NCBI RefSeq assembly: GCF_025770725.1
Contig: NZ_JANZKZ010000002.1
Span: 186,001 to 250,000, forward strand
Reading direction: 5' to 3'
Source of the DNA: Sulfurospirillum oryzae
Lineage (GTDB): Bacteria > Campylobacterota > Campylobacteria > Campylobacterales > Sulfurospirillaceae
DNA length: 64,000 nt
In this document: positions 4,989-59,686 of the stretch, in pieces
How positions within the stretch are numbered: the stretch's first letter is position 1
How the letters are laid out: every line of letters starts with the position of its first letter
Position numbers and translations under genes: made by a program
Notes under the pieces: generated by a model
Databases searched by the model: none
The model's input: the letters and a program-made list of their open reading frames with translations, nothing else
Told to the model about the DNA's origin: nothing

Positions 4989-5802
4989 ATTAGAAGCACG
5001 CATTAAAGAAGGTAGTTTAATTCCTTTTCTAGGGATGGGTGTCTTTAAAGAGACCAAAACAGAAGAGGGGGAGCAACTTCCATTTGATAGCGACTCGATG
5101 ATTTTGCGTCTTAATGGCGGAAGGGCGATGTCGCCTCGCTTGATGTATGAATACTCGCGTGCGGCGATGAGCCTAGAACAGCGCAAAGGGCGACCTTTTA
5201 TTGAGCAGATGACACATCATATCTTTACAGCAAAACCTTACCCAATTCCTGAAGTGTACGTGTGGCTTAAAACCTTGATGCCACACTATGTGGTCGATCT
5301 TAACCTTGATGATTCACTTCTTAAGCTTTACGCGGATGTTGATCACTTTTTGATTACAGGGGTGAGCCGCATTATGGCTGGGTATGATCGTTTTATTGTT
5401 TACATGTACACTTCTTCCACTAAAGCGTATCATCGCGTTGAAAAAGAGATGTTAAATCCCATGATTCCCATTCTTTTCAAACCCTTAGGATGCACTGTTC
5501 CTGAAAAAAGCTTTATTATTAGCGATGCTGACTTTGTCGATTGGTTGACTGAAGCGATGGGCGGTTACGCACTTCCACCGTTTCTCAAAACCTTTAAAAA
5601 TGAAAAAAGCTACCTTTTTTTAGGGATTGATTTTGATCGCGATACGTATCGTATGGTGGCAAATGAAGTCACACTTGGCTTGGATGGTGGCTATTTAGTG
5701 AATGATAAAAAAGAGATGAGTAAAAAAGAGGAGAAGTTTCTAACGTCTCATAAAATTGAAAAGTTAGAAACTTCATTAGAAAGTTTTTTAAAGGGTGCCT
5801 AA
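4975..5802 (+). CDS. SIR2-like domain protein, probably catalytically degenerate
   Basis: 275 residues. It starts at GTG 4975, 14 bases inside nifA and downstream of AAGGA, suggesting translational coupling. The layout resembles SIR2-like folds: PFLGMGVF (17-24) where the NAD-binding GAGxS motif would be, LNLDD (109-113) where TNxD would be, KPLG (169-172) where the catalytic-histidine HG motif would be, and YLFLGIDFDRD (213-223) like the closing fiGysl.D motif. The Ser, Asn and His expected of an active NAD hydrolase or deacylase are missing. I infer a binding or regulatory protein coupled to NifA. The relation to SIR2 is by hand alignment and moderately sure. Confidence 0.6.
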   Translation: MKKSELEARIKEGSLIPFLGMGVFKETKTEEGEQLPFDSDSMILRLNGGRAMSPRLMYEYSRAAMSLEQRKGRPFIEQMTHHIFTAKPYPIPEVYVWLKTLMPHYVVDLNLDDSLLKLYADVDHFLITGVSRIMAGYDRFIVYMYTSSTKAYHRVEKEMLNPMIPILFKPLGCTVPEKSFIISDADFVDWLTEAMGGYALPPFLKTFKNEKSYLFLGIDFDRDTYRMVANEVTLGLDGGYLVNDKKEMSKKEEKFLTSHKIEKLETSLESFLKGA

Positions 5803-34119: not shown

Positions 34120-34134
34120 TGGTTTTCCCAACCT

Positions 34135-34569
34135 TTACATGTAAAAATGTTTGGCTTGAACGATCTCAATATTTTTAGCTTGCAATGCTTTTATAGCATC
34201 ATCAAAGCGATCTTTATCGACGCTGAAAATGAAAATACCCGTACTTGCCTCATAAAAGCTGTACGTGTAAAGAATGTTAATGCCAGCCTCTGAAAGCGCA
34301 CTCACGGCTTTGTCAAAGCTTCCCACAACATCTTCGATCTTAACGCCAAAGACATCGGTAAAACGTACGCTAAAGCCTTCATCTTCGAGCACGGTTTTGG
34401 CTTTTTCAGGATTGTCCACGATGGTGCGAACCAAACCAAAGTCGGTCGAGTCTGCGAGTAAAATGGACTTGATAGAGATGCCATTTTTGGAGAGAATATG
34501 GGTAAGAACAGAAAGCTCACCTGCCTTATTTTCTAAAAAAATCGTTAGTTGTTTAATGTTGCATTTCAT
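34135..34569 (-). CDS. ACT domain protein
   Basis: 144 residues with two consecutive ACT-type halves (KQLTIFLENKAGELSVLTHIL at 5-25 and LSEAGINILYTYSFYE at about 91-106). ACT domains bind amino acids and regulate enzymes. Being between two PaaK genes and behind iorAB, it may sense an aromatic amino acid. It overlaps the upstream ligase by one base (TAATG). It ends in Tyr-Met-stop encoded by a TTTACATGTAAA palindrome, so the stop codon is part of the repeat. Confidence 0.88.
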   Translation of the reverse strand: MKCNIKQLTIFLENKAGELSVLTHILSKNGISIKSILLADSTDFGLVRTIVDNPEKAKTVLEDEGFSVRFTDVFGVKIEDVVGSFDKAVSALSEAGINILYTYSFYEASTGIFIFSVDKDRFDDAIKALQAKNIEIVQAKHFYM

Positions 34570-35867
34570 TATAGACTCCTTTTATCGATGACGCGAACGG
34601 CTTTGCCGATACTGCGCTCTATGGTTCTTGGCTCAACAAGTTTTATATCTGCGTTAATGTAGAGATTGTTCAACAGTTCATGTTGGATTTTTTTCTTCAA
34701 AGCTTCGAGTGCTCCGATGCTATCAAGAGGCATATCTTCGGTCACTTCCACCATAATTTCAAGTTTATCGAGGTAGCCTTTTTTATCGGCGATGATTTGG
34801 TAGTTAAGCGTAATGCCTTCGATGTTGGAGAGTACATGCTCAACTTGCGATGGGAAGACATTGACACCATTAACGATGAGCATGTCATCGACGCGTCCCA
34901 TAACACTTTTCATACGCACGTGCGTTCTGCCACACTTACATGGAGTCTGGTCAAGAGAGGTGATGTCACCCGTTCGGTAGCGAATGATGGGGAATGCTTG
35001 CTTGGTAAGACTGGTGATGACCAACTCGCCTTTTTCGCCATACGGCAACACTTCTCCCGTTTTAGGGTCGATGATCTCTGGGTAGAAATGATCTTCAAAA
35101 ACGTGTAGATCTTTGCTCTCAAAACAGTTAGAAGAAACACCCGGTCCGATGATCTCAGAGAGTCCGTAAATCTCGCAATAGTGAATGCCCCAAACACGGG
35201 CTACTTCTTCTTTGAGTCCCAGACTTGTAGGTTCTGCACCAAAGATGCCGCATTTGAGTTTGAAGTCGTTTTGGATGTCGTAACCCTCAGAGACTGCCGC
35301 TTCTGCCATGTGTAGAGCGAAAGAGGGTGTAGAAGTTAAAACGGTTGCTTCAAAGTCTTTCATCAACATGAGTTGGCGTGACGTAAAACCACCACTGCTT
35401 GGAACAACGGTTGCACCGACGGTTTCAGCGCCGTAGTGAAGTCCAAGACCACCCGTGAAAAGTCCATAACCATAAGCGTTATGTGCCGTATCTTCGCTTG
35501 TGACACCTGCCATAGTGAAAACACGTGCCATCACTTCATTCCATGTGTCCAAATCGGCTTTGGTGTAGCCAACAACAGTTGGTTTTCCCGTCGTTCCACT
35601 ACTGCTATGAATGCGCACAACTGCATCTTTTTTAACGGCAAAAAGCCCAAAAGGGTAGTTGTCTCGAAGGTCTTGTTTCTTTGTAAATGGAAGTTTTACA
35701 ATGTCATCAATAGAATGAATATCGTTAGGCGTGATGCCAAGCTCTTCAAACTTCTTTTGGTAAAAAGGTACATGCGCATAGACACGAGCAACCGTGTCTT
35801 GCAGCCTCTTTGTTTGAAGTTCGGTGAGTTTATGGCGTGGGAGCGTCTCTTCTTTTGACCAGATCAT
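34569..35867 (-). CDS. paaK: Phenylacetate-CoA ligase, paralog 2
   Basis: 432 residues, same family and motifs as paralog 1: [28 protein letters not shown] and a cysteine pair CKCGRT. It overlaps iorB by 4 bases (ATGA), so it is translationally coupled to it. With IorAB it could interconvert arylpyruvate, arylacetyl-CoA and arylacetate. Two ligase copies may differ in substrate (phenylacetate, indoleacetate, hydroxyphenylacetate). Confidence 0.9.
34762..34805. repeat. 44-base segment identical to 33014-33057
   Basis: The partner copy in paaK paralog 2, in the same orientation. Confidence 0.75.
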
Positions 35868-36400
35868 TTGTTATCCTTTGCATCATCGATTCCTTGATGG
35901 AGAACGACAATGTTTTTATCGGCTACTTTGGCATTCATAAGTCTAATGGCTTCTTCGATCTCTTTACATGTAAACGGAAAATGTGGATCGAGGGCAAGCG
36001 TAACGCCAAGCATATAGACGTTAAGTGCATCGATGGGAAACTCATTGGCTTTTGCTTTTTTAAACGCGTCAATGCTGTGAGTTTCAAAGTCAACTTTCGG
36101 GAAATTTTTAGGTGCATTCATCACGATGACACCTTTTTCTTTGCTCAGATACTGAATGTTGCGAAGTGCTTCATTGCCTTCTAGTGCAATTAAAAGATCG
36201 GCTTGCCCTTCATCAATCGCTGGGGCGTAAAAATCACCGATTTTAACGTAGCACGACACAGAGCCTCCGCGTTGGCTCATACCATGATTTTCAGTTCCAA
36301 GACATTTTTGGTTTTTAATCGCAGAAGCAATGCTTAAAACTTTGACCAAAAAGACAGCGCCTTGTCCGCCAATTCCTGCGATAACAATTTGATACTTCAT
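35864..36400 (-). CDS. iorB: Indolepyruvate:ferredoxin oxidoreductase subunit beta
   Basis: 178 residues, the gamma-type domain of 2-oxoacid:ferredoxin oxidoreductases: [18 protein letters not shown] at the N-terminus, [18 protein letters not shown], and [12 protein letters not shown]. Pairs with IorA to oxidise arylpyruvates (from Trp, Phe, Tyr) to arylacetyl-CoA with reduction of ferredoxin. Two bases after iorA. Confidence 0.93.
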
Positions 36401-36402
36401 GG

Positions 36403-38214
36403 CTACTTCTCCTCTTTTTTTACAAACGCATCAGTCGGGCAGATGACATCAAGGCATGAACCACAACCTGCACATAAGAACGGGTCAATCTCCATTTTGC
36501 CAGCATCGTTGTAGTGCATTGGTGGGCATTTGTAGTTGGTAATACACGAATCACACGCGACACATTTGTCTTCATCGACTTCGACAACCACGTTGCCAAG
36601 ACGACCCGTTGCATTTTCTTTATCGAGTACGCAAAATTCACGCACAACCGCAACGACAGGAGCCGTAGCGGTTTTATACATCTCTTGAAGTGACTTCATA
36701 AAGTCAACGGTTTTGTTCAAGTCTTGCTCATACACATACTCATGGCAACTGACGCCACATCCTTCAACAATGCGTTTGATGTCGATTTGGTGAGGATTGG
36801 TGCGTTCTGGTGTTGTTTGACGACCTGTCATGGCAGTCGTGGAGTTGTCTAAAATGACAAGAATAAATTTGTGGTTTTGATACACAGCGTTAATGAGTGG
36901 CGCAACCCCTGAGTGCATAAAGGTACTGTCTCCAATGGTTGCAATAACAGTTTTATCAGGATCAGAGATGCTAAAACCACTCGCCATGGAAATGCTTGCA
37001 CCCATACACAAAATGGTGTCGATTGCCGCTTGATTGAGCCCTAGCGTGTAACAGCCGATGTCTGAGGTATAGATAGACTTTTTCTTTTTAAAGACTTTAG
37101 TAATGGCATAGTGAACATCACGGTGAGGACAGCCTGGGCACATATTGGGTGGGCGTTTAGGAAGTTCAAGGTCGTATTTTTCACTTTTGTACGCATGACT
37201 TGGAGCTATAACACCCGCATTTGCAAAAGCGGAGAGTACTTTGTCTTTGGAAAACTCATCAATAACATGAACATGCTTAGTCAGTTTTCCATAGAGTTTT
37301 GGCGAGCTTAACTGCTCTTCGATGCACGGAAAGCTCTCTTCAAAAACAATGACTTTGTCGTAGTTGACAAAGAGTGCTTCAAGTTTTTCTTTTGGAAGAG
37401 GGTAGGGCATATCGAGTTTGAGTACATCGGCATGAATATCAAGTTCGCTAAGAGCTTCTCTCACATAACCATCACCCGTTCCACTGGTAAGGCAGAGAAC
37501 ATTTTCGCCTTTAAGCGCATGGGTTTTAGGCTTAATGAGATGATCCCAGTTCCATGCTTTGATGGCTTCTAAACGATCAATCTGCTCTAAGCCTTGTCGA
37601 AATCTCCCAGCAGGTGGTACAGCACCCCAACGAGGAATATTGCGTTCAAAATCACCTTCATTGGCTTTTACATGTAAGCCATCATCGACCTCGCAAATCT
37701 CTCTGGCGTGGCTGACACGCATAACAGGGCGTAACATGACAATGGATTCAAATTCATGGGAAAGTTCAACTCCTAGTTTAACCATGTCATAGGCTTCTTG
37801 CGGCGTGGAGGGGTCAAGCACAGGAATGCGCGCAAACTTGGCAAAACTTCGGCTGTCTTGTTCTGTTTGAGAAGAATAAAAACCTGGATCATCACACGAA
37901 ATGAGAAGCATAGCACCTTTAAGCCCGATGTAAGAAGCACTCATTAAAGGATCGCTCGCCACATTAAGTCCTACTTGCTTCATGGTAGCACAGGTACGTT
38001 TGCCAGAAATGGCTCCAGCATAAGCGACTTCAAAACCTACTTTTTCATTGGTTGCCCATTGCGCGTAAGCTTCTAATTTATTTTTGTCTCGAAATTTTTG
38101 AAAATTTCCCAAAATCTCACTTGAAGGTGTCCCTGGATAACCCGAGACCATATCGACACCTGCGTGAATAAGCCCTAAGGCAATTGCTTCATTCCCCATC
38201 AAAATTTGTTTCAT
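36403..38214 (-). CDS. iorA: Indolepyruvate:ferredoxin oxidoreductase subunit alpha
   Basis: 603 residues. Contains the pyrimidine-binding domain (VSGYPGTPSSEI), the thiamine-diphosphate domain (IGDSTFMHSGV with CPGCPHRD) and a C-terminal ferredoxin domain with two 4Fe-4S motifs (CVACDSCITNYKCP and CAGCGSCLDVICP). First gene of the ior-paaK operon. The start is placed at MKQILMGNEA (38214) because GGAG lies 9 bases before it. An ATG at 38229 lacks such a site. Confidence 0.93.
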   Translation of the reverse strand: MKQILMGNEAIALGLIHAGVDMVSGYPGTPSSEILGNFQKFRDKNKLEAYAQWATNEKVGFEVAYAGAISGKRTCATMKQVGLNVASDPLMSASYIGLKGAMLLISCDDPGFYSSQTEQDSRSFAKFARIPVLDPSTPQEAYDMVKLGVELSHEFESIVMLRPVMRVSHAREICEVDDGLHVKANEGDFERNIPRWGAVPPAGRFRQGLEQIDRLEAIKAWNWDHLIKPKTHALKGENVLCLTSGTGDGYVREALSELDIHADVLKLDMPYPLPKEKLEALFVNYDKVIVFEESFPCIEEQLSSPKLYGKLTKHVHVIDEFSKDKVLSAFANAGVIAPSHAYKSEKYDLELPKRPPNMCPGCPHRDVHYAITKVFKKKKSIYTSDIGCYTLGLNQAAIDTILCMGASISMASGFSISDPDKTVIATIGDSTFMHSGVAPLINAVYQNHKFILVILDNSTTAMTGRQTTPERTNPHQIDIKRIVEGCGVSCHEYVYEQDLNKTVDFMKSLQEMYKTATAPVVAVVREFCVLDKENATGRLGNVVVEVDEDKCVACDSCITNYKCPPMHYNDAGKMEIDPFLCAGCGSCLDVICPTDAFVKKEEK

Positions 38215-38347
38215 CGTGTTGTGCTCCATCGCTTGTACATAGTAATTTTAAAGGGTATTGAAACTAAGATTATAAATTACTTATCTAAGAAGCTTTGACA
38301 AAATCATTACATGTAAAGTGGGCAATTTTGAAACCTTATAACTTTTT

Positions 38348-38353
38348 TATAAT
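38348..38353 (+). promoter_or_regulatory. Candidate -10 element for the symporter operon
   Basis: TATAAT 76 bases before the small accessory gene. An upstream TTGAAA is at 38328-38333 but only 14 bases away. The same intergenic region (38230-38428) holds a TTACATGTAA palindrome at 38307. Confidence 0.4.
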
Positions 38354-38428
38354 CTATTAAGGATAAAAATAAAGTTTCGTTAAAGCAATTTATATTACTT
38401 TGAAGAACTTTTATAAGGAGATGAAGGC

Positions 38429-38596
38429 ATGGGAACATTTGATCTTGGGGTTGGGACGGCGTTTTGGCTGATGAATGCGAGTGCTCTTTTGTGCGTTATT
38501 TACGGGGTAATATACTGGAATAAGGACAAAGAGGAGAAGGTGTTAAACACCAAGTCTTGGGATAAAGATGAAGCTAAAATCAATAAGGAGCTATGA
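38429..38596 (+). CDS. Symporter small accessory protein
   Basis: 55 residues: one N-terminal membrane helix (about 8-30; FWLMNASALLCVIYGVIYW) followed by a charged cytoplasmic tail (NKDKEEK..). The start ATG follows AAGGAG. It ends at TGA overlapping the symporter ATG by four bases. Tiny single-span proteins directly upstream of sodium:solute symporters recur in this position and are annotated as symporter small accessory proteins. Its exact role is unknown. Confidence 0.75.
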   Translation: MGTFDLGVGTAFWLMNASALLCVIYGVIYWNKDKEEKVLNTKSWDKDEAKINKEL

Positions 38597-40236
38597 TGAA
38601 TTTAATTGAAAATATTGTCATTATACTTTATCTTGCAGTCCTTGGGTATTTGGGTTTTGTAGGATATAAACAGACGAAAAGTTCAGCGGATTATCTTATC
38701 GCAGGTGGCGATACGCATCCCTTTGTTATGGCACTCAGCTATGGAGCAACCTTTATCTCTACAGCTGCTATTGTAGGTTTTGGTGGTGTGGCGGCATGGC
38801 TTGGTAATTCACTGCTTTGGCTTACCTTTTGTAACATCTTTATCGGTGTATTCATCGCGTTTGTGGTTTTGGGCAATCCGACGCGAAAAATGGGTATTCG
38901 TCTAAACGCACACACCTTTCCTGAATTACTAGGGCGCCGTTTTAATTCTAAGTTTATTCAGATGTTTGGCGGTGTTTTAATTACCGTTTTTATGCCTTTG
39001 TACACATCGGCAGTTCTCATTGGCGGTACAGAGTTCTTGGTGGCTTACTTCAAAGTGGATTATCATTTGGCACTGCTTGTGATGTCGGTGATTGTAACGG
39101 GTTATGTGCTTGCGGGTGGTCTTAAAGGCGTTATGTTAACCGATGCGTTGCAAGGTGTCATTATGTTCGTTGCAATGGTCATTCTTTTGGTGATGGTTTT
39201 TAATTCTGTTGGTGGTGTTGATGTTGGATTCTCGAAACTAGAAACCGTTTGGAATGAAACGGTGGCATCGCTTGGGAATGTTAACATTAAAGATCTCAAA
39301 GCAGGTAGTCCTGATTTTATGATGAAGCTCTCTATGAACTGGGGATTTCAAGGTTGGAACAAAATGCCTGTTTTCCTCTCAGAAGGATGGCTCTTTGTTA
39401 TTACGACGATTACGATGGGTGTTGGGATTGGCGTTTTAGCACAACCACAGTTGGTCGTTCGTTTTATGACCGTTAAGAGTAAAAATGAGCTCAATCGTGC
39501 GGTTTTAATCGGCGGTGTTTTTATCATTGCAATGACGGGAATTGTTTTTATTGTTGGGGCACTTACCAATGTTTGGTATTATGATTTTAATGAGGGAAAA
39601 AATGCGCTTCAAAGTGCTGGTGGTATTGGTAAAGTTATTCCTCATTTTATTAATGCCGCAATGCCAAAATGGTTTGCATTTATCTTTTTATTTGCACTCA
39701 TTTCAGCGGCAATGAGTACGCTCTCAAGCCAGTTTCATGCAATGGGAACAGCGATAGGTCGTGATGTCTTTGAACAGATTGCGGGAAAACACAACCCAAA
39801 TTCACTCTTAATTACCCGCGTGGGAATTATTGTCATGATCGTCATTTCGGTAACACTTGCTTATGTTTTTGATAAACAGCCTGCGATTATCGCACGTAGT
39901 ACGGCAATCTTTTTTGCGCTGTGTGCGAGTATCTTTTTACCGACCTATTTTGGTGGACTTTTTTGGAGAAGAATGACTAAAAAAGGAGCAATCGCTTCAA
40001 TGATTGTCGGTACAGTCGTTACCACGTTTTGGCTCTTATTTGTTCACTTTCAAGAAGCCAAAGAGTTGGGTCTTTGTAAAATGATCTTTGGTGTCAACAC
40101 ACTCTTAACGGGTAAAGTGACCTTTGTCGATGCCATGATCGTTGCATTACCGCTCTCAGCGTTAAGTGCTGTTATTGTCTCATTGATGACAAAACCAGAG
40201 AGTCCTGCTTTAATTAAAAAGTGTTTTGAAGATTAG
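38593..40236 (+). CDS. Sodium:solute symporter
   Basis: 547 residues with about 13 membrane segments of the SSS family. Signature elements: SSADYLIAGGDTHPFVMALSYGATFISTAAIVGFGG near the start and the GG.KGVMLTDALQGVIMF segment. Family members import acetate, proline, pantothenate or other organic acids with Na+. The divergent ior-paaK operon makes an aromatic or other carboxylate a reasonable but unproven substrate. Confidence 0.88.
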   Translation: MMNLIENIVIILYLAVLGYLGFVGYKQTKSSADYLIAGGDTHPFVMALSYGATFISTAAIVGFGGVAAWLGNSLLWLTFCNIFIGVFIAFVVLGNPTRKMGIRLNAHTFPELLGRRFNSKFIQMFGGVLITVFMPLYTSAVLIGGTEFLVAYFKVDYHLALLVMSVIVTGYVLAGGLKGVMLTDALQGVIMFVAMVILLVMVFNSVGGVDVGFSKLETVWNETVASLGNVNIKDLKAGSPDFMMKLSMNWGFQGWNKMPVFLSEGWLFVITTITMGVGIGVLAQPQLVVRFMTVKSKNELNRAVLIGGVFIIAMTGIVFIVGALTNVWYYDFNEGKNALQSAGGIGKVIPHFINAAMPKWFAFIFLFALISAAMSTLSSQFHAMGTAIGRDVFEQIAGKHNPNSLLITRVGIIVMIVISVTLAYVFDKQPAIIARSTAIFFALCASIFLPTYFGGLFWRRMTKKGAIASMIVGTVVTTFWLLFVHFQEAKELGLCKMIFGVNTLLTGKVTFVDAMIVALPLSALSAVIVSLMTKPESPALIKKCFED

Positions 40237-48805: not shown

Positions 48806-49617
48806 TGAAACGATTTCCTTTATTGAGCACCATCCTTTTGGTGCTCATCTTCCTTTTTTGCTTTGTTTTACCCTTCTTCTATGCAGGCTCTGCTTATGAT
48901 CTTGATCCAAAAGCCATTTTATTACCACCAAGTTTTGAGCATCTTTTAGGAACCGATAGACTAGGTCGTGACCTGTTTACAAGGTTGATGGTGGGCGGGC
49001 AAGTATCCTTAATGATTGGCATTTTAAGTGCGCTGTTCTCTAGTTTAGCAGGGCTTATGATTGGTATTAGTGCGGGATTTTTCCAAAAGAATGTTGATAA
49101 AATGATTATTGTGCTTATTGATCTTTTTCTCACGTTTCCGACATTTTTTCTTTTACTCGCACTCATTAGCTATATGAGCGCTTCAGTCTGGGTGTTGATT
49201 TTTATCATTTCAATTACTGGCTGGATGGGCATGGCGAGGATGATACGAAGTGAAAGCTTTGCCATTTCCAATGCTCCGTTTATTAAAATTCTTAAACTCT
49301 CCAATGTCAATACCTTCAAAATTATTTTCAAATACTTTGCCCCTTTACTTACGCCTATCTTTTTTATCAGCTTTACGTTTGGTGTGAGTGGGGCGATTTT
49401 GGCAGAGAGTGGGCTTAGTTTTCTAGGTATTGGCATCACACCGCCACAGATGAGCTGGGGTGTGATTATTAGCGAAGGTAAAGAGGTCATCGATATTGCA
49501 TGGTGGCTGAGTTTTTTCCCTGGGTTTCTCATCTTTTTAGTCACGTTTTCGCTTATTAATCTCTCTGATTATTTGCAAAGTAAAAGCAACGAAAAAGACA
49601 TTTTGAATGACGTTTGA
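48805..49617 (+). CDS. ABC transporter permease, DppC/OppC type, without partner genes
   Basis: 270 residues with about six membrane segments. LLGTDRLGRDLFTRLMVGGQVSL and ESGLSFLGIGITPPQMSWGVII are typical of the C-type permease of oligopeptide/nickel ABC importers. No binding protein, second permease or ATPase lies nearby, so partners must be elsewhere. GTG start overlaps the flgK stop by one base. It overlaps the next gene by 11 bases. Confidence 0.85.
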   Translation: MKRFPLLSTILLVLIFLFCFVLPFFYAGSAYDLDPKAILLPPSFEHLLGTDRLGRDLFTRLMVGGQVSLMIGILSALFSSLAGLMIGISAGFFQKNVDKMIIVLIDLFLTFPTFFLLLALISYMSASVWVLIFIISITGWMGMARMIRSESFAISNAPFIKILKLSNVNTFKIIFKYFAPLLTPIFFISFTFGVSGAILAESGLSFLGIGITPPQMSWGVIISEGKEVIDIAWWLSFFPGFLIFLVTFSLINLSDYLQSKSNEKDILNDV

Positions 49618-50359
49618 AAAAGTTGCAAAACTTTTAAAAGAAGAATCTTTCAAACGAAATCATTTGGAGGAAATTAGTTTGGAGCGCCCTGATCCTTTGA
49701 TGGTTGCTTCAAAGCACAAAGATGAGTTTAGTGCGCTTATTTGCGCGCTTTTTGCCTATGGCAATGTTCAAGCCATCATCAAGTTTTTAGAGAGTTTGGA
49801 TTTTTCACTGCTCGAAAAAGATGAGATAAGCATTACTCAAACACTAAGTCAGCACTATTATCGTTTTCAAACCTCCCAAGATATTCAGCAATTTTTTCTT
49901 ACATGTAAAAGAGCAAAAGCCCAATCTGCCACATTAGAGTCTATCTTTTTAGAGGGCTATCGCAAAAGCCATAACGTGATGGATGGATTAAGAGGGTTAA
50001 TAGCATTTTTATACGATATAAATCCCTATAGGTCGCGTGGATATGAGTTTTTATTGGGCAAAATACCTGCTACTATCCCAACGTCTCCTTATAAACGATG
50101 GCACATGTATCTAAGGTGGATGGTGCGTAAAGACCATCTTGATCTTGGTCTTTGGAGCGGAGTTGAGAGCAAAGATCTGCTTGTCCCTCTTGATACGCAT
50201 ACGTTTGCACTAGGAAAAAAACTGGGTTTGATTCAGCGAAAATCGTATGATTTTAAAGCGGTGTTAGAACTCACCGAGTCATTTAAAAAGCTAGATCATA
50301 ATGACCCGATTAAGTACGATTTTGCACTGTATCGCTTAGGACAAGAGCGACGTTTTTAA
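49607..50359 (+). CDS. TIGR02757 (DUF2400) family protein
   Basis: 250 residues. Matches the family through ERPDPLMVASKHKDEFSALICALFAYGN at the N-terminus, RLNMYLRWM-like HMYLRWMVRKD, DLGLW and LVPLDTHTF near the C-terminus. Function unknown; distantly resembles helix-hairpin-helix DNA glycosylase-type folds. Its stop codon overlaps that of the convergent hyfI-like gene by a few bases. Confidence 0.85.
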   Translation: MTFEKVAKLLKEESFKRNHLEEISLERPDPLMVASKHKDEFSALICALFAYGNVQAIIKFLESLDFSLLEKDEISITQTLSQHYYRFQTSQDIQQFFLTCKRAKAQSATLESIFLEGYRKSHNVMDGLRGLIAFLYDINPYRSRGYEFLLGKIPATIPTSPYKRWHMYLRWMVRKDHLDLGLWSGVESKDLLVPLDTHTFALGKKLGLIQRKSYDFKAVLELTESFKKLDHNDPIKYDFALYRLGQERRF

Positions 50360-51108
50360 ACTCTTCCAAGAAATTGTAGAAGTCCATTGAGTGCTGTGTA
50401 AGGGTGCGGTGGGCATCCAGGAATGTAGAGATCAACGGGTAAAAGCGAATCGACACCATTGCACACTTCATCGCTCTTTTGGAACAAACCTCCTGAAATG
50501 GCACACGTGCCTGAGGCAATGACAATCTTTGGACTAGGCAGGGCATCGTAAGTATCCATGAGCGCTTGTTTCATGTTGAGTGTCACAGGGCCTGTGATGA
50601 TGATACCATCAGCATGACGAGGCGAAGCTGTAAAACTAATACCAAAACGATTAAGGTCATAAACGGGTGTGCCTAAAACATTGAGGTCTGCTTCACACGC
50701 ATTACATCCACCTGCGGATACAAGGCGCAATTGAAGCGATCTTTTAAAAAGTTTTTGTATTTGTTGGTTTAATTGAAACCCAATTTTTTCGACCTCTTTG
50801 GTCACAAGGAGTGTTGATCTTTGATGGGACGCCAAGCGATACTCATGGGTAAATTGAATGTTGTTATGGGTGCAAAGCGGAACACATTGATCACAAAAGA
50901 TACATTTGCCTAAATCAATCGCAATGCTTTGCTCTTTTTTTGCAATCGCCTCTGTCGGACAAACATCTATGCACGCTTTACATGTAAGATCACAACTTCC
51001 CGTTATCTTTGGCACGCCTGAAAAACGAGGGGATAAAATAGGCTCAATTTTAGGGTATTTACTGGTGTTATAACCTTGTCTCAATCGTTCCAAAAGTACA
51101 AAAAACAT
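50356..51108 (-). CDS. Hyf/Ehr complex small subunit fused to a two-cluster ferredoxin domain
   Basis: 250 residues combining HyfH-type and HyfI-type parts. Residues 39-50 and 69-79 hold two 4Fe-4S motifs (C39, C43, C46, C50; C69, C72, C75, C79). The C-terminal domain is NuoB/HyfI-like with GGCNACEAD (C135, C138), GTCAISGG and IPGCPPHP, all four ligands of the proximal cluster present. Start at MFFVLLERL (51108) after AAGGA. An upstream TTG lies in the preceding gene. It should pass electrons to or from the large subunit. Confidence 0.85.
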   Translation of the reverse strand: MFFVLLERLRQGYNTSKYPKIEPILSPRFSGVPKITGSCDLTCKACIDVCPTEAIAKKEQSIAIDLGKCIFCDQCVPLCTHNNIQFTHEYRLASHQRSTLLVTKEVEKIGFQLNQQIQKLFKRSLQLRLVSAGGCNACEADLNVLGTPVYDLNRFGISFTASPRHADGIIITGPVTLNMKQALMDTYDALPSPKIVIASGTCAISGGLFQKSDEVCNGVDSLLPVDLYIPGCPPHPYTALNGLLQFLGRV

Positions 51109-51118
51109 CGCTTTATCC

Positions 51119-52630
51119 TTATAAATCAAAGCCGCAGTAAGAGAGGTTAAAGCTCTTATTGCACAGAGGGAAATCTGAAATTTGCCCCTCTCTCATGGCA
51201 AGACTGAGTGCTGTCCAATTATGAAAAGATGGGTCTGTGATTTTATAGCGTACCAATTTTCCATGCTCATCGGTTTGCGCTACATGCACAATTTCACCTC
51301 TCCAACCCTCTGTCAGCGAAATACCTAAGGCATTTGAAGGTAAGACAACATCATTGACTCGCGTAGGTTTTTGAATGGCTATCTCTTGAATACTTCGTAA
51401 CATGTTATGAATAAGCTCTAAAGAGGAGACAATTTCAGCTCTTCGCATCATCGCTCTTGCAAAAATATCACACGATGCTTCAAGCGGTATGTCATAACTT
51501 ATAGCATTATAATAACCAAAAGGGTAATTTTTTCGTGTGTCGCGAGCTATAGCGCACGCCTTGGCGGCAATACCTACAAAACCATAGGTTATAACATCTT
51601 CTTTGGTTATTTTTCCGATGTTTTCAACTCTTTCTAAAACGGATGTCGATCTAAAAAAGAGATCAATAGCGCTGAGTGTTTTGCTTTGCAATACTTTGAG
51701 TTGCTTGGCTATCGTGGCGGCGAGATTGAAGTCAATATCATAACCCACACCCCCTACGATAATACCGCCTCTACCAAATCTATTGCCGGTGATGCTGGCG
51801 GTAAGGTTGAGAAAGTCGCCCCTCAGTTTTCCGCAGTAAGACGCCGTTGGTAAAAATCCCGTATCGCCAGAGAGCGCACCAATATCGCCCACGTGGTTAG
51901 CAATTCTCTCCAACTCTAAAAGCACTATACGAATGAGTTCACTTTTTTGAGAGACGTGAATACCTGCCATAGCTTCAACGAGTTGCACATAGGCTAAAGA
52001 GTGCCCTATGGTTGTATCGCCTGCAAGAACTTCCATTTGTGAAAGCGTTTGAGGGGAGGGGCCGCCTTGTAGCATTCTCTCAATGCCTCTGTGCTGATAC
52101 CCTAATGATATTTCTAAATTCACTACATTTTCGCCATAGCATTGAAATCGAAAGTGCCCTGGCTCAATGACCCCCGCATGAACAGGACCTACGGCTACTT
52201 CGTGTACATCTTCACCACTGACCTGAAAATAGTTGAGATCACCACACGCATTTTTCTTTACATGTAAAGAAAAGTCTTGCTCAAATCGTACAGGTTTAAG
52301 CCACGGATGATCGTGCACAGTTACACCAAATTGTTCGGCGATTTCTCTCTCAAAAAGATGGATTTGAGGGATGATGGAAGCATGTGACTGGAACGTATTG
52401 TTGATGAGCTCAAATCGGGAGATTTTTAAAAGAGAGGTTGTGTCATTACCCAAAATGCAGACCAAATGCAACGCGTTATTCATAGGTGTTGCAAAAAGCG
52501 ATAAGACGCGGAAATTATGGTTAGTGACATTTTCTACAATGTTGCTCCAAAACAGCTCTTCGGTTGAACTGGGAATATCTTCTATTTTGCCCCATGAAGG
52601 ATTACATGTAAAGAGTGTACTGTAACTCAT
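51119..52630 (-). CDS. Hyf/Ehr complex large subunit, NiFe-binding cysteines missing
   Basis: 503 residues: an N-terminal NuoC/30 kDa-like part (about 1-120; IHLFEREIAEQFGVTVHDHP) and a NuoD/HycE-like part. In group 4 hydrogenases two CxxC pairs bind the NiFe centre. Here the first reads AGDT at 203-206 and the C-terminus reads NLSYCGFDL instead of DPCxxC. The conserved surroundings (YQHRGIERML, IGHSLAYVQLVEA) remain. It is therefore unlikely to be a hydrogenase. It resembles energy-converting hydrogenase-related (Ehr) subunits. Overlaps the membrane subunit gene by 4 bases. Confidence 0.85.
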   Translation of the reverse strand: MSYSTLFTCNPSWGKIEDIPSSTEELFWSNIVENVTNHNFRVLSLFATPMNNALHLVCILGNDTTSLLKISRFELINNTFQSHASIIPQIHLFEREIAEQFGVTVHDHPWLKPVRFEQDFSLHVKKNACGDLNYFQVSGEDVHEVAVGPVHAGVIEPGHFRFQCYGENVVNLEISLGYQHRGIERMLQGGPSPQTLSQMEVLAGDTTIGHSLAYVQLVEAMAGIHVSQKSELIRIVLLELERIANHVGDIGALSGDTGFLPTASYCGKLRGDFLNLTASITGNRFGRGGIIVGGVGYDIDFNLAATIAKQLKVLQSKTLSAIDLFFRSTSVLERVENIGKITKEDVITYGFVGIAAKACAIARDTRKNYPFGYYNAISYDIPLEASCDIFARAMMRRAEIVSSLELIHNMLRSIQEIAIQKPTRVNDVVLPSNALGISLTEGWRGEIVHVAQTDEHGKLVRYKITDPSFHNWTALSLAMREGQISDFPLCNKSFNLSYCGFDL

Positions 52631-54042
52631 AGGTTTCCTTCCAATAAAGCAGCCGCGTCCATGATGAGCTGTTTGAACACATCAGGCATGCTCAGACCAA
52701 TGATGAGAATAATAGACAAAAAGAGTAAAGGGGTAAGATACATTTCAATAGTATCTTTATACCCAGTTTCAACCATAGGCGGCTTTCCTCTTGAAGCGCC
52801 AAGAAACGTTTTTCCCATACCCATAAATGCAAGTATTAGTCCTAGCATAAAAAGAAGTGAGACGAGTGGCGAGTGGGCAAGTACACCTTGTAAAATCGAA
52901 AACATACTAAAGAAAGAGCCAAAAGGAGGCGTTCCGACAACCGCTAGAAAAGCGATGAGGAAAAGAGTACCTGTTATGGGTATTTTACTCAAAGCGCCAC
53001 TGATAAACTCAGTCGTTTTTTGACCGTATGCTCTGCGGATGTTGCCTACTGCAATGAAAATAGCACCTTTAAGCAGGGCATTGTTAAAGATATGAAAGAG
53101 AGCTCCAAAAATGCCTATGCCTCCCACGCCAAGACCAAGTGCAATAATGCCCATGTGCTCAATGCTTGAATACGCCAAGACTTTTTTAATATCCAGTTGA
53201 TTTAACATCGCAATGGAGGCAAAGAGTATGGAGATAATGCCAAAGAAGATAAGAATGGTGTGTACTAAAACAGACTCTCCTGCGGCATTCATGATCTGAA
53301 TCAGTCGCATCAGTGCAAGCCATGAGAGAGAGGTGACGCCTCCTGCCATTAAAGCTCCAAAGATACCCGGTTCCACGCTGTAAGCATCCGCTTTCCAAGA
53401 GTGAAGAGGGAAGAGCCCTGTTTTAGTTGCAAAGCCTATAAACATAAACACAAATGAAATTTTGAGCCATGTGGGATTGAAATATTTATCATTTGAGAGA
53501 ATATTGGTAAACGTAAGCGACGTGTCATTTGCCCCAGCAATAATGGCGGAGTATGAGATAAAAAGCATACCAATCAGTGCTAAAACAATGCCAATGGAGC
53601 AGAGAAAAAGGTACTTCCATGTCGCTTCAATGGAGGCTTTATTTTTGTTGTAATAAATAAGCGGTGTACATGCAAGCGAAGCGGTTTCTAAAAAAATCCA
53701 CATGCTAATAAGCTCATTGGCTATAACCATCAGTGTTGCAAAAACGATAAAGACAACCAGGCTGAGTGTGACTATTTTATTGTCATTGGTGAATTGGCAT
53801 TTTGAGAAATACCCAATGCCATGAAACGAGATACCAAGGTAAAGAATACTTAGCGTGATAAGAATGAGTTTGGATAGGGCATCCATCATTAAAACAGAAG
53901 TGTTTAAGAGATAGATGGTTAATCCTAGATGAAAGATGGCTACGGCAAAAACAGTATAGGCACGTAAATAGTTCTCTTTTGAAATAAGGATAATGCCCAA
54001 AGAGAGCATGATAAAAAGAGTGCAAAGAACCAAAAGAGTCAT
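52627..54042 (-). CDS. Hyf/Ehr proton-pumping membrane subunit, HyfF/NuoN-like
   Basis: 471 residues, about 14 membrane helices. WIFLETASLACTPLIYYNKN, the ATKTGLFPLHSWKADAYSVEPG segment and KKVLAYSSIEHMGIIALGLG are the antiporter-like motifs with key lysines and a histidine. It probably moves H+ or Na+. It follows the HyfE-like gene with GGGAG as ribosome site. Confidence 0.9.
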   Translation of the reverse strand: MTLLVLCTLFIMLSLGIILISKENYLRAYTVFAVAIFHLGLTIYLLNTSVLMMDALSKLILITLSILYLGISFHGIGYFSKCQFTNDNKIVTLSLVVFIVFATLMVIANELISMWIFLETASLACTPLIYYNKNKASIEATWKYLFLCSIGIVLALIGMLFISYSAIIAGANDTSLTFTNILSNDKYFNPTWLKISFVFMFIGFATKTGLFPLHSWKADAYSVEPGIFGALMAGGVTSLSWLALMRLIQIMNAAGESVLVHTILIFFGIISILFASIAMLNQLDIKKVLAYSSIEHMGIIALGLGVGGIGIFGALFHIFNNALLKGAIFIAVGNIRRAYGQKTTEFISGALSKIPITGTLFLIAFLAVVGTPPFGSFFSMFSILQGVLAHSPLVSLLFMLGLILAFMGMGKTFLGASRGKPPMVETGYKDTIEMYLTPLLFLSIILIIGLSMPDVFKQLIMDAAALLEGNL

Positions 54043-54045
54043 GCG

Positions 54046-54690
54046 TTACTCCCGTAGCGATGTAAGCTTGCCTACATCACCTTTATCGAAGGTTGTTGAA
54101 ATATGGTTCAACATAATTCCCATAATGAAAACACCCGCTAAGACATCAAGCAAAACACCAATTTCGGCTAAAAAAGTAACGGAACCTGTGAGCATTGAAC
54201 TCAAAATATAGACGCCGTTTTCCATAATGAGATAACCAATAACCTGCGTGATGGCTTTTTGCCTTGCAATGATCAAAATCATACCCGACATTAACGTGGC
54301 AAAAAAGACGGGCACGATAATCGTCTCTTGATGGGCGGGAAGAAGCGGAAGCTTTTGCGAAATGAAAAAAGATAAAAAAACAGATAAAGCATCAATAAAC
54401 ATCGTTGGCATATACCCAATCAAAGGATGCATCTCTTGGTTGATTTCGGCAAGTTTGGTTGCACGGATGAGAAGCATTGGAATGATGATCCCTTTTATAG
54501 AGACAATAATGAGAAAAAGAATGGTTCCTTTGGGAGTAAATTCTTCTGAAAAAAATGCCAATAAAGCTAAGATAATGCCTTGTAAAGCAACGGCTTTAAT
54601 CGCGGTGATGATTCTATTGCTTCCCATAATAAACATATTGATGAGAACGACAAGCAGTAAAATGGTGTTGATAGAAGAAGCGTTCATCAT
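54046..54690 (-). CDS. Hyf/Ehr membrane subunit, HyfE-like
   Basis: 214 residues, six to seven membrane helices. Pattern GSNRIITAIKAVALQGIILALLAF and QVIGYLIMENGVYILSSML matches hydrogenase-4 component E, a NuoK-like membrane subunit with an extra N-terminal part. GAGGT precedes the start. Confidence 0.88.
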   Translation of the reverse strand: MMNASSINTILLLVVLINMFIMGSNRIITAIKAVALQGIILALLAFFSEEFTPKGTILFLIIVSIKGIIIPMLLIRATKLAEINQEMHPLIGYMPTMFIDALSVFLSFFISQKLPLLPAHQETIIVPVFFATLMSGMILIIARQKAITQVIGYLIMENGVYILSSMLTGSVTFLAEIGVLLDVLAGVFIMGIMLNHISTTFDKGDVGKLTSLRE

Positions 54691-54694
54691 GTTT

Positions 54695-55612
54695 TTACCT
54701 CGTAATCAAAATAATGCCAAATAAAGAAACGATCAATGTTCCAATCAGGACTTGTTTAATGGCAATCAGTTTCAGTCTTGCCATCACTGATTCAATAACA
54801 CCAACAACGATGCCTACGCCCAAAACACCTGCAATGGCTATAAGCGTATCATAAGCTAAAACACCTGTTTTAAAAGGAATTGCCAAGTCAACAATCAAAA
54901 CCGCATAGACTGTAAATTTCATAGCACTACCTAAAACGATGGAGGCAAGAAGCGGTCCACTATGGTCAAGCACCATCGCTTCATGGATCATCGTAAGCTC
55001 AAGGTGCGTTGCTGGATCATCAAATGGAATACGGGAATTTTCGACCAGTAAAATGACCAAAAAGCAGACAACAACAATGCCAAAAATCGTGCTATAGTCA
55101 TGCCATGCCTCTAAAATATGGGAACCAAAAAAGTCATACAGGGTTAAAGAAGAAGTCCCTTTTGCCAAAATAATCAAACAGACAAATAAGATAGGCTCAA
55201 CCAAAAATGAAAATGTAAGCTCCCTAGCACTTCCCATGCCTTCAAAACTCGAAGAGGTGTCAAGTGCCGATGAGGTTGTAAAAAATCTTAATACCCCAAA
55301 CATATAAACAAACAGCAAAAAATCTCCCTCAAAGCTGATAAGCGGAGGAATGGAAGCAAAAGGTAAAAATAAAAAAGCAAAGAAAGGTACTATCAAAGCA
55401 AAAAGAGGACCTACAAAAAAGACCCATGAAGTTGTTGTACTAAGCTTTATAGACTTTTGCACAAGCTTGATGATGTCATACATTTTTTGAAGCACAGGTG
55501 CCCCGCATCTTCCTCCAAAGAAAGCTTTTACTTTGATGATAATGCCCATATTAACAATGGAAAGAACCAAAAAGAGCAAAAGCATCAAAATGATTTGAAG
55601 TATGTCAAACAT
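54695..55612 (-). CDS. Hyf/Ehr membrane anchor subunit, HyfC/NuoH-like
   Basis: 305 residues, about eight membrane helices. KAFFGGRCGAPVLQKMYDIIKLVQK near the N-terminus and SRIPFDDPATHLELTMIHEAMVLDHSGP are the NuoH/HyfC signature with the conserved acidic residues near the quinone-chamber entrance. The start ATG 55612 is right after the HyfB stop. A longer in-frame reading into hyfB was rejected. Confidence 0.9.
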   Translation of the reverse strand: MFDILQIILMLLLFLVLSIVNMGIIIKVKAFFGGRCGAPVLQKMYDIIKLVQKSIKLSTTTSWVFFVGPLFALIVPFFAFLFLPFASIPPLISFEGDFLLFVYMFGVLRFFTTSSALDTSSSFEGMGSARELTFSFLVEPILFVCLIILAKGTSSLTLYDFFGSHILEAWHDYSTIFGIVVVCFLVILLVENSRIPFDDPATHLELTMIHEAMVLDHSGPLLASIVLGSAMKFTVYAVLIVDLAIPFKTGVLAYDTLIAIAGVLGVGIVVGVIESVMARLKLIAIKQVLIGTLIVSLFGIILITR

Positions 55613-55613
55613 T

Positions 55614-57584
55614 TTATTTTCCCACATACAAGAGCATAATAATGAGTGCTGTAAAAATATAAAGCACATAAATACCCATGTATCCATTATGAATTAACTT
55701 TCTTGTTTTCGCCGCAAATAAAAGCGTGGAATCTGCTATTTTGAGTAATGTGTAGATAACTTTATCGTTTTGACGTAGATAAAATTGATATTTTTGAACA
55801 AAAATCCCTTTCATGGATAACTCACTCTTTTTACGTTTGAGTGCCCAGCTAAAAAGATTCATAATCATTTGCGCCAAGGAAGCAGGTGTGTATTGTATTC
55901 TGGGTGTGCCATAAGGAAAAGCACATGCCCATGTGTCTATATCGGTTTTGATTTTACCTTTGAGGGTATAAAAGAGTATGCCTCCACTTAGAGCTACAAT
56001 AATCAATAATCCACTATAAGCATACGATAAATCGCTCATCGCATTAAGTTTGAGCATAAGTGGCGCATGGTTGAAAAGCATTGTGGCACGTGAGAGGAAG
56101 CTTTCTAAAATAAAGGGAAAGAGTCCTAACATAAAACAAATGACCGATAAAATACCCATAGGTAGGAGCATTGACCATGAAGATTCTTTTACATGTAAGA
56201 GTTCAATATGGCGAGGTTTACCCAAAAATGAGATACCAAAAACTTTCACAAAACAGGCAAGGGCTAATCCTCCAATGATAGAGAGAGCTATAATCCCCGC
56301 CATAACAGGAAGAAGCGAGTTTTGAGTAGAAAGAAGACTTTTAAACATTCCCATATACAGTAACCATTCACTTGCAAAACCATTAAGCGGTGGTAATCCG
56401 CTAATTGCCACAGCACCTATGAGAAAGAAGAGGGCTGTATAGGGTTGCACTTTGATGATGCCACCGTAATGATTGATGTCCCTAGTATGGTATTTTTCAA
56501 TAATAGAGCCTGCACTGTAAAAGAGCAAAGGTTTAAAGAGTGCATGATTGATGACGTGAAAGAGCGCACCGGAGAGTCCAAAAAGAACCAGTGTTTCGTT
56601 GCGATAACTTTTTCCAAGTATCGCAAGCCCAATGCCAATAAGAATAATACCGATGTTTTCTATACTATGGTAGGCTAAAAGTTTTTTGATGTCATGTTGG
56701 GCAATGGCGTAAACAACGCCTAAAATACCCGAGATAATTCCGAGCCCAAAAACTACCCATCCCCACCAATGAGGTATGTTGGTAAATAAAGAAGCCACTC
56801 TGATGATGCCATAAATTCCCATTTTAATCATAACGCCAGAGAGAAGTGCTGAGATAGCAACCGGTGCGCTTGCATGAGCGGAAGGGAGCCAAAAATATAA
56901 AGGGAAGATGCCCGCTTTGACACCAAAGCCAAAAAGTCCTAGCAAAAATATCCATGAAGCAAGACTTGAATGTGCATCAATATGCCCAAGTGCAGAGGTA
57001 AAATCAAAGTAGCCAAAGTAGTTTTGAATGATGCCAAACAGACCAAAAAGTGCCACAATACCCGTATGTGTCGCGATGATATAAAGATAACCAGCTTTTT
57101 GTGCTTCTTCATCTAATTCATCAATCGTTACTAAAAAATAGGCAAGTAAAGACATGATTTCCCAACACAACAAAAACATCATAAAGTTATCGCAGATAAC
57201 AAGAAGTATCATAAAGATGGTAAAGAAAGAGAGAAAAAGCCTGTATTTAACCGATTGGTGTAAACCCTTTTGAATCGTTGACCAATAGGATATGCTGTAA
57301 ATCGCACTCATCGCACTGATGGTATAAATTGGGATTAAAAAAACAAGGCTGAGTGTATCTATTTTGATTGAAAAATGACCAAAAAGTGTTTCAAAAGGTA
57401 GTATCGCCGCAATATCTGAATGATTGTGTAATTGCAGCAAAATAAACACCCACCCCACAATGCTACCTATTACATGTAAAGAAGCAGAAAGCTTGTCTGA
57501 TAAAGAGGGTTTCATTTTTGCTGTAAAAAAAGGAATAAGACCTGCAAGAAGTATACAAAAAAGTGACAATACAATGAGCGTCAT
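55614..57584 (-). CDS. Hyf/Ehr proton-pumping membrane subunit, HyfB/NuoL-like
   Basis: 656 residues, about 15-16 membrane helices. Motifs: MFLLCWEIMSLLAYFLV, FGVKAGIFPLYFWLPSAHASAPVAISALLSG and KKLLAYHSIENIGIILIGIG. It is an antiporter-like ion pump and the first gene of the six-gene operon (B-C-E-F-G-I order). The start follows GAGGAG. A TTTACATGTAAG and a second copy occur at 56189 and 57470. Confidence 0.9.
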   Translation of the reverse strand: MTLIVLSLFCILLAGLIPFFTAKMKPSLSDKLSASLHVIGSIVGWVFILLQLHNHSDIAAILPFETLFGHFSIKIDTLSLVFLIPIYTISAMSAIYSISYWSTIQKGLHQSVKYRLFLSFFTIFMILLVICDNFMMFLLCWEIMSLLAYFLVTIDELDEEAQKAGYLYIIATHTGIVALFGLFGIIQNYFGYFDFTSALGHIDAHSSLASWIFLLGLFGFGVKAGIFPLYFWLPSAHASAPVAISALLSGVMIKMGIYGIIRVASLFTNIPHWWGWVVFGLGIISGILGVVYAIAQHDIKKLLAYHSIENIGIILIGIGLAILGKSYRNETLVLFGLSGALFHVINHALFKPLLFYSAGSIIEKYHTRDINHYGGIIKVQPYTALFFLIGAVAISGLPPLNGFASEWLLYMGMFKSLLSTQNSLLPVMAGIIALSIIGGLALACFVKVFGISFLGKPRHIELLHVKESSWSMLLPMGILSVICFMLGLFPFILESFLSRATMLFNHAPLMLKLNAMSDLSYAYSGLLIIVALSGGILFYTLKGKIKTDIDTWACAFPYGTPRIQYTPASLAQMIMNLFSWALKRKKSELSMKGIFVQKYQFYLRQNDKVIYTLLKIADSTLLFAAKTRKLIHNGYMGIYVLYIFTALIIMLLYVGK

Positions 57585-57820: not shown

Positions 57821-59686
57821 TTGAAATTTAATTATTGGCTACCAAGAAGCATTGCTATCTTGAAAGAAGGCTATAGTATTTCAAATTTGTCAGCAGACTT
57901 TATGGCTGGAACAACGGTGGCGATCATTGCCCTTCCTTTAGCAATGGCTTTTGCAATTGCAAGTGGCGTGAGCCCCGAGAAGGGTATTTTTACCGCTGTT
58001 ATTGCAGGGTTTCTCATCTCTTTTTTAGGGGGAAGTCGGTACCAAATCGGAGGTCCTACAGGGGCATTTGTTGTTATTTTGTATGCGATAGTACTCAAGC
58101 ATGGCTATGATGGGTTAGCACTTGCGACATTAATGGCAGGTGTGATGTTGATGTTGATGGGCTTTTTTAGGTTAGGAAGTATCATCAAGTTTATTCCATA
58201 CCCTGTGACTGTTGGTTTTACCGCTGGTATTGCTCTCATTATCTTTTCTTCACAAATGAAAGATTTTTTTGGTTTTAATATTGCTAAAATGCCTGCTGAG
58301 TTTGCAGACCAATGGGTCATTTATGCGGAAAATGCAAGTCACTTTAATGTCTATTCTCTGGTTATTGGGTTTTTGAGTGTCATTGTATTGCTCAATTTCC
58401 GTAAAATTTATCCTAAAATTCCAGCTCCCATTATTGTGATCGTCCTTTCTTCCATAGTTGTAGCACTTTTTCAGCTTCCTGTTGAAACCATTGGATCACG
58501 ATTTGGCTCTATTCCTTCCACACTTCCAAGTCCAAGTATTCCTCTTTTTTCACTGGAAAAAGTACGAGCTGTTTTTTCGGACGCCATTACGATAGCGCTT
58601 TTAGGAGCCATTGAGTCATTGTTGTCGTGCGTTGTGGCTGATGGTATGTCCGGAGACAAGCATCACTCCAATAAAGAGCTCATTGCACAAGGGCTTGCCA
58701 ATATCGCTGCACCATTGTTTGGAGGTATCGCTGCAACGGGTGCTATTGCTAGAACCGCAACCAACATTAAAGCAGGTGCTTTTAGCCCAATTTCAGGCAT
58801 GATTCACGCATTGATGCTTTTAATTTTTATGTTTTTATTTTCCAAGTGGATTTTACTAATTCCTATGGCAGCTTTGGCCGCTATTTTAGTTGTTGTAGCT
58901 TGGAATATGAGTGAATTTCATCACTTTAAAGCGATCGCATTAAAATCTGAGAAATACGACAAAATTGTTCTCTTTACCACTTTCTTCTTAACGCTTTTTA
59001 TCGATTTGAATACAGGCGTTCAGATGGGTATTTTATTTGCAGCCCTTTTATTTATTAAGCGTATGAGTTTAGTCACAGATGTTAAAGATCAAAGACAAGA
59101 TTTTTCTATCTCGTTAGATGAAGAAGATGAAGAGGTTGAAAAAGCGGATCCTTACGCGATTAGCAATCGTATTGTTCCCGCGGGTGTTGAAGTCTATGAA
59201 ATCAATGGTCCTTTCTTTTTTGGTGTTGCCGATAAGCTCAAAGGGGTGCTTGATTCGGTGAGTAAGTTTCCTGAAGTCTTTATCTTACGTATGCGTCATG
59301 TCCCTATGATGGACGCAACAGGATTTCATGCGTTAGAAGAGTTTTATGAATTGTGTAAAAAAGGCAATGCGCAGCTGGTGCTTTCGGGTGTCAGTGAAAC
59401 TATTAAGGCGAAATTGAAGCGTTTTGGATTCGATGTCATTATTGGCGAAATTAATATTACCGATAATATCGACTTAGCGCTTGCACGTGCCAATGACATC
59501 TTACTGAAAAAAGAACAAGAGAAGTTCTATGCACATATCAAAATTTCCAAAGAAAGAGTGAGCGAAGACCAAAAGGAACGTATTATTGCAGGGACACAAC
59601 ACTTACTTATGGAGATTTTAGGTAAAAAATCAACAGATACGGTTGTGGAAATTGAAGAAGAGGAAGATAAAAATGCCTTACGTTAA
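57821..59686 (+). CDS. SulP-family anion transporter with STAS domain and tautomerase-like tail
   Basis: 621 residues. A transport domain of about 12-14 helices (DFMAGTTVAIIALPLAMAFAIASG, QIGGPTGAFVV), then a STAS domain (about 455-560; LRMRHVPMMDATGFHALEEF). The extra tail at about 567-615 aligns without gaps to the neighbouring 4-oxalocrotonate tautomerase (21 of 49 residues identical by hand), but lacks the catalytic proline. TTG start after GGGAG. Probable substrates are sulfate, bicarbonate or dicarboxylates. Confidence 0.85.
   Translation: MKFNYWLPRSIAILKEGYSISNLSADFMAGTTVAIIALPLAMAFAIASGVSPEKGIFTAVIAGFLISFLGGSRYQIGGPTGAFVVILYAIVLKHGYDGLALATLMAGVMLMLMGFFRLGSIIKFIPYPVTVGFTAGIALIIFSSQMKDFFGFNIAKMPAEFADQWVIYAENASHFNVYSLVIGFLSVIVLLNFRKIYPKIPAPIIVIVLSSIVVALFQLPVETIGSRFGSIPSTLPSPSIPLFSLEKVRAVFSDAITIALLGAIESLLSCVVADGMSGDKHHSNKELIAQGLANIAAPLFGGIAATGAIARTATNIKAGAFSPISGMIHALMLLIFMFLFSKWILLIPMAALAAILVVVAWNMSEFHHFKAIALKSEKYDKIVLFTTFFLTLFIDLNTGVQMGILFAALLFIKRMSLVTDVKDQRQDFSISLDEEDEEVEKADPYAISNRIVPAGVEVYEINGPFFFGVADKLKGVLDSVSKFPEVFILRMRHVPMMDATGFHALEEFYELCKKGNAQLVLSGVSETIKAKLKRFGFDVIIGEINITDNIDLALARANDILLKKEQEKFYAHIKISKERVSEDQKERIIAGTQHLLMEILGKKSTDTVVEIEEEEDKNALR

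Follow-up and report, generated by a model that had tools for sequence, protein, structure and literature searches.

The minus-strand operon at 50356-57584 of the window (the whole 64,000-nucleotide stretch of Sulfurospirillum oryzae DNA analysed here) almost certainly encodes a complex of the energy-converting hydrogenase-related (Ehr) type, whose large subunit lacks the NiFe ligands. Its genes and motifs place it in the known Ehr family, which also includes the Geobacter complex (GSU0739-45), and in a subclade with a fused two-cluster ferredoxin domain on the small subunit. Ehr complexes occur in many phyla, and to our knowledge their substrate has not been established. The complex probably performs another redox job and is not the wreck of a hydrogenase.

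Operon layout and gene calls

Open reading frames and their translations define six genes, which encode HyfB, HyfC, HyfE, HyfF, a fused NuoC/D-like large subunit, and a fused ferredoxin/small subunit. The operon and its flanks are as follows.

49607..50359, plus strand: left flank of the insertion site, a conserved 250-aa gene, which we take to be TIGR02757-like
50356..51108, minus strand: ehrS, two-[4Fe-4S] ferredoxin domain plus NuoB/HyfI-like small subunit, with the four proximal-cluster cysteines present
51119..52630, minus strand: ehrL, fused NuoC/NuoD (HyfG-like) large subunit, 503 aa, without NiFe ligands
51131..51142, minus strand: SYCG, residues 497-500 of the ehrL product, at the site of the second CxxC
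52013..52024, minus strand: AGDT, residues 203-206 of the ehrL product, at the site of the first CxxC
52627..54042, minus strand: hyfF/ehrD, NuoM/N-like antiporter subunit, 471 aa, without the TM12 acid (SFFSMF)
54046..54690, minus strand: hyfE/ehrC, small membrane subunit, 214 aa
54695..55627, minus strand: hyfC/ehrB, NuoH-like subunit; the ORF opens at 55687, and homologs begin at the Met of MWENK, at about 55627
55614..57584, minus strand: hyfB/ehrA, NuoL-like antiporter subunit, 656 aa, ion-pump residues intact
57821..59686, plus strand: right flank of the insertion site, SulP-family permease

The initial annotation described six genes (HyfB, C, E, F, G, and I-like) at 51119-57584. The number of genes stands, but the last one is a HyfH and HyfI fusion and not just HyfI-like. 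Five of the genes lie in that range, whereas the small-subunit gene lies outside it, at 50356-51108 (or to 51129). EhrS comprises 250 aa from the ATG at 51108, and the ORF itself opens at a TTG at 51129. The start of HyfC is probably near 55627, not at 55687. Pfam and NCBIfam profiles agreed in matching the operon ORFs to the HyfB, HyfF, NuoH/HyfC, HyfE, and Complex1_30kDa/49kDa families. The hydrogenase-4 equivalog scores of the operon proteins were below the NCBIfam cut-offs.

The SulP-family permease (57821-59686) has a C-terminal tautomerase-like stretch at 570-618. In many Sulfurospirillum genomes, the match to this permease runs on past an in-frame TAA; therefore, the fusion may stem from the loss of a stop codon. 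Elsewhere in the window, at 3591-5802, a GAF-domain sigma-54 activator that reads as NifA-like lies beside an unassigned ORF.

Loss of the NiFe ligands

AGDT and SYCG were found at exactly the residues reported in the initial annotation, and both NiFe-binding CxxC pairs of a catalytic group 4 [NiFe] hydrogenase are replaced. The protein is thus a group 4-type large subunit without the four NiFe cysteines, as in Ehr. The Hyf enzyme (RVCGICG...DPCYSC) and the Ech-type enzyme (KVCALC...DPCISC) of the same genome keep their ligands in the same alignment, so the loss is no alignment artefact. Among 36 large subunits of the Ehr subclade, the old ligand columns hold A203 in 33, T206 in 33, S497 in all 36, and G500 in all 36. 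At either ligand position, a motif table distinguishes the NiFe-less proteins from Hyf, Ech, and Nuo. Sequencing error was ruled out as the origin of the missing cysteines because the loss is common to independent orthologs in other Sulfurospirillaceae, in Desulfobacterota, and in a spirochaete. Published Ehr complexes show the same NiFe-ligand loss (including PMC13194489).

Family identity

A tree built with the ligand columns removed still placed the large subunit in an Ehr clade (support 100/99), separate from the Hyf, Ech, Mbh, and Nuo proteins. When these columns were kept, the same clade of NiFe-less large subunits was recovered with an SH-aLRT of 100. The trees hold no named Geobacter or other published Ehr sequence, so the name Ehr rests on the subunit composition and the shared loss. 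The composition is that of Ehr: a membrane arm with NuoL-, NuoH-, and HyfE-like subunits is encoded in one operon with the large and small subunits. The view that this is an Ehr complex unable to bind NiFe, with a large subunit outside catalytic group 4, was therefore borne out by the tree and by the recurrence of the loss in independent genomes.

A hydrogenase-4 assignment was rejected on the missing ligands and the tree. The earlier warning that such an annotation misleads proved apt, as seen from the profile scores and from plasmid homologs that carry misleading names ('NADH-quinone oxidoreductase subunit C', 'nickel-dependent hydrogenase large subunit', and 'hydrogenase expression protein HypE'). 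Hydrogenase-4 is another label given to Ehr complexes. This genome has five large-subunit genes: two Nuo, one Ech-type, one Hyf, and the one described here. The intact Hyf, the intact Ech-type enzyme, and the two Nuo complexes of this genome provide internal controls for annotation and knock-out work.

Ion-pump subunits

The claim of intact ion-pump motifs holds for HyfB, in which the charged residues E142, K223, K300/301, H347/K351, and E406 are present. It does not hold for HyfF, which lacks the TM12 acid and reads SFFSMF at 376-381, compared with SEF in relatives; the motifs are thus intact in HyfB only. Each of the three Sulfurospirillaceae HyfF proteins lacks the TM12 acid. At the remaining loci that the search pattern recognised (it missed about half of the loci), the position is E and, once, K.

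Redox modules and the former NiFe cavity

The two-cluster ferredoxin domain fused to the small subunit has eight cysteines. The proximal-cluster ligands C135, C138, C202, and C232 are invariant, and the GGCNACE motif needs no gap when aligned to the small subunit of MBH (MbhJ). Membership of the MBS group was rejected on this proximal-cluster anatomy, that is, on the four invariant cysteines and the ungapped alignment to MbhJ.

The most conserved 18-residue windows of the large subunit start at 143-147 and 483-486, and they correspond to segments that line the cavity in related complexes. E156, the equivalent of MbhL E21, is invariant. MbhL E21 is key to proton reduction in MBH and is missing from MBS (PMC7684303). 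Its retention as E156 favours proton-coupled chemistry. The quinone-headgroup residues of complex I, Nqo4 H38 and Y87, align with I155 and G204, and CNAC stands in place of the tandem CysCys of NuoB. A complex I assignment was rejected on the ligands, these quinone residues, and the tree.

Several cysteines are conserved in the subclade: C164 and C499 occur in 36 of 36 large subunits, C490 in 35, and C266 in 31. C499 and C164 are mostly missing in six more distant rows. The near-invariance of C164, C490, and C499 in the aligned subclade sequences despite the loss of the NiFe ligands is a new observation, and it offers residues to mutate. Structures predicted from alignments without plasmid-derived rows had a mean pLDDT of 89.5 for the large subunit and 88.2 for the small subunit; loops 149-154 and 500-503 of the large-subunit model were below 50.

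Selection

The dN/dS values of subunits A, B, C, D, L, and S were 0.02-0.24 in eight close Desulfobacterota pairs. The window copy stands well apart from its nearest ortholog (66%). A 2026 Geobacter paper took the absent NiFe site as a sign that Ehr is nonfunctional and drifting (PMC13194489). In the lineages tested, the dN/dS values weigh against this reading. The dN/dS range across Ehr operons is new and, together with the conservation of the cavity, argues against the published view. Tight constraint on the Ehr family makes another redox job likely.

Distribution and insertion site

Orthologs were found in two other Sulfurospirillaceae, in one Desulfobulbaceae and one Desulfocapsaceae MAG, and in a spirochaete. 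Matches at E<=1e-60 occur in 84 of 395 Desulfobacterota-type genomes (the phylum of genome G328), with identity up to 54% over most of the protein. Relatives with 30-37% identity lie on plasmids of Rhizobium, Azospirillum, Burkholderia, Rhodococcus, and others. A wide taxonomic spread of Ehr has been reported (PMC10284858, PMC10432482), and gene order is kept in Ehr operons of other phyla.

The operon is carried by only 3 of 44 Sulfurospirillaceae genomes. In 20 operon-free relatives, about 50-60 bp separate the two flanking genes, as measured between translated matches, and the operon sits in that gap in S. oryzae (G000) and in G307. In the third carrier (L044), it lies beside other genes. 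This carriage, in a gap of about 55 bp that is empty in 20 relatives, is a new observation. Either gain or repeated loss may explain it.

Another Ehr-like large subunit without the cysteines, at about 32% identity, is common among other Campylobacterota (L015-L035). Its motifs are RISGNESIAYQ ... NKSCDLSYAGNDL, and HRGIE is changed to YRGIE in most copies.

Neighbourhood and co-occurrence

Clustering of neighbouring proteins found no recurrent enzyme partner within about 8-10 kb of the Ehr operons, with shadow ORFs in GC-rich loci bringing noise and masking some genes. The only strong recurrent neighbour, at 34 loci, was a regulator of about 224 aa with HTH_17 and PTS_EIIA_2 domains (Pfam), which lies upstream of the operon at 4180-4851 in locus L047 and in 33 other loci. 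No such regulator was seen next to the Sulfurospirillaceae operons. In Variovorax and Rhizobium, plasmid Ehr operons have universal stress protein genes about 2 kb away or less (L091, L093).

At 32.8-38.2 kb, the window encodes AMP-binding ligases and a 2-oxoacid:ferredoxin oxidoreductase of the indolepyruvate type, which are possible ferredoxin sources with no tie to the operon. In the region 32821-40236, the oxidoreductase subunits and the two AMP-binding (phenylacetate-CoA-ligase-like) genes lie beside an SSS symporter (38593-40236).

Substitution of Ehr for Rnf was rejected because Ehr and RnfC did not avoid each other in the 395 Desulfobacterota (30 shared, 26.4 expected). No RnfC match was found in S. 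oryzae. In the same 395 genomes, Ehr and nifH co-occurred above expectation (37 versus 21.1, Fisher p 1.6e-5, uncorrected for phylogeny). Among the three Sulfurospirillaceae carriers, nifH is present in just one; in S. oryzae it lies at C2:160221-161081. A role of Ehr as ferredoxin supply for N2 fixation is only weakly suggested.

Proposed mechanism and alternative explanations

We tentatively propose, at somewhat under even probability, that the complex couples ion transport to a ferredoxin-fed, proton-coupled reduction of an acceptor other than H2, most likely a quinone. Reduced ferredoxin would dock on the fused domain of the small subunit, and electrons would travel by way of its two [4Fe-4S] clusters to the proximal cluster, which has its full set of cysteine ligands. 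A hydrophobic, proton-consuming acceptor would then be reduced in the former NiFe cavity, at a quinone site rebuilt with a different set of residues from that of complex I. This reduction would drive ion translocation, mainly via HyfB. The reverse direction, in which reduced ferredoxin is produced, may also occur. The lack of the complex I quinone residues and of the MBS three-cysteine cluster, together with the retained E21 equivalent, favours such chemistry. The pump residues of HyfB, the Fe-S ligands, the conserved cavity, the dN/dS values, and the lack of a recurrent enzyme partner also count for it, and a generic acceptor would suit the wide taxonomic spread. Other points count against it. 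The replacement of Nqo4 H38 and Y87 speaks against a quinone, and a third quinone reductase would be redundant beside two Nuo complexes. In Rhizobium relatives, the small subunit is short and the listed operon encodes no ferredoxin domain, so ferredoxin feeding is not general to the family. The proteomic link of Geobacter Ehr to formate (PMC7894505) is also counted against the mechanism.

The same formate link, in which Ehr subunits are more abundant on formate (PMC7894505), and the pairing of Ehr with formate dehydrogenase proposed for Riflemargulisbacteria (PMC6349859) would suit a formate-linked chain with a formate dehydrogenase partner. No recurrent dehydrogenase gene lies near the operons examined, and no formate dehydrogenase was recognised among the window ORFs read (only part of which were profile-searched); this explanation has a slim chance. 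Reduction of polysulfide or another sulfane sulfur compound, as by archaeal MBS, would agree with the absence of the NiFe centre and the quinone residues in MBS as well (PMC7684303), with the sulfur-cycling lineages among the carriers (Sulfurospirillaceae, Desulfocapsaceae), and with the near-invariant C490 and C499. However, MBS has only three cysteine ligands at its proximal cluster and a motif shortened by three residues, whereas the motif here is ungapped with four, the E21 equivalent lost by MBS is retained, and many aerobes, among them Rhizobium and Rhodococcus, carry members of the family. An MBS-like role is therefore quite unlikely. C164, C490, C499, and often C266, kept near the former site in the subclade while the four NiFe ligands were lost, might instead ligate a different metal or Fe-S centre, or act as a redox dithiol, in a refitted NiFe pocket. 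If true, this cysteine set would give the complex I superfamily a type of catalytic centre not described before. It is an improbable reading, as loops 149-154 and 500-503 of the model have low confidence and the conservation of the cysteines may be structural. Finally, redox chemistry may have been lost altogether, leaving a passive or redox-gated ion antiporter or a plainly nonfunctional complex. The published verdict on Geobacter Ehr, the missing TM12 acid in Sulfurospirillaceae, and patchy carriage point this way. Low dN/dS in all subunits and the conserved cavity and Fe-S ligands make it unlikely, although they weigh less against a gated antiporter.

Comparison with known systems

In Geobacter sulfurreducens, the Ehr complex (GSU0739-45; work of Coppi cited by PMC7894505 and PMC13194489) shares NuoL-like, HyfE-like, large, and small subunits with the window operon and likewise lacks the catalytic NiFe-binding centre. 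It comprises seven genes, including ehrA-1 and ehrA-2, whereas the window has one EhrA; this comparison was made at the level of the locus. Desulfobacterota Ehr operons (L045, L046, L095-L148) encode large subunits 40-54% identical to that of the window, a fused ferredoxin-small subunit, and the same gene order and AGDT and NKSFNLSYCG motifs. Many of them add the upstream HTH_17-PTS_EIIA_2 regulator and a second antiporter subunit. A further difference is that the Sulfurospirillaceae copies lack the HyfF TM12 acid.

Among solved structures, the best match in both sequence and fold is E. coli formate hydrogenlyase (HycE/HycG, PDB 7z0s), with Z scores of 40.8 for the large subunit and 16.4-16.8 for the small subunit. 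HycE retains its NiFe ligands, and no adjoining formate dehydrogenase was found at the window operon. MBS of Pyrococcus furiosus (PDB 6u8y) resembles the window complex in lacking the NiFe centre and the quinone residues H38/Y87. In contrast, the window Ehr has neither the three-cysteine proximal cluster nor the shortened motif of MBS, and it has not lost the E21 equivalent.
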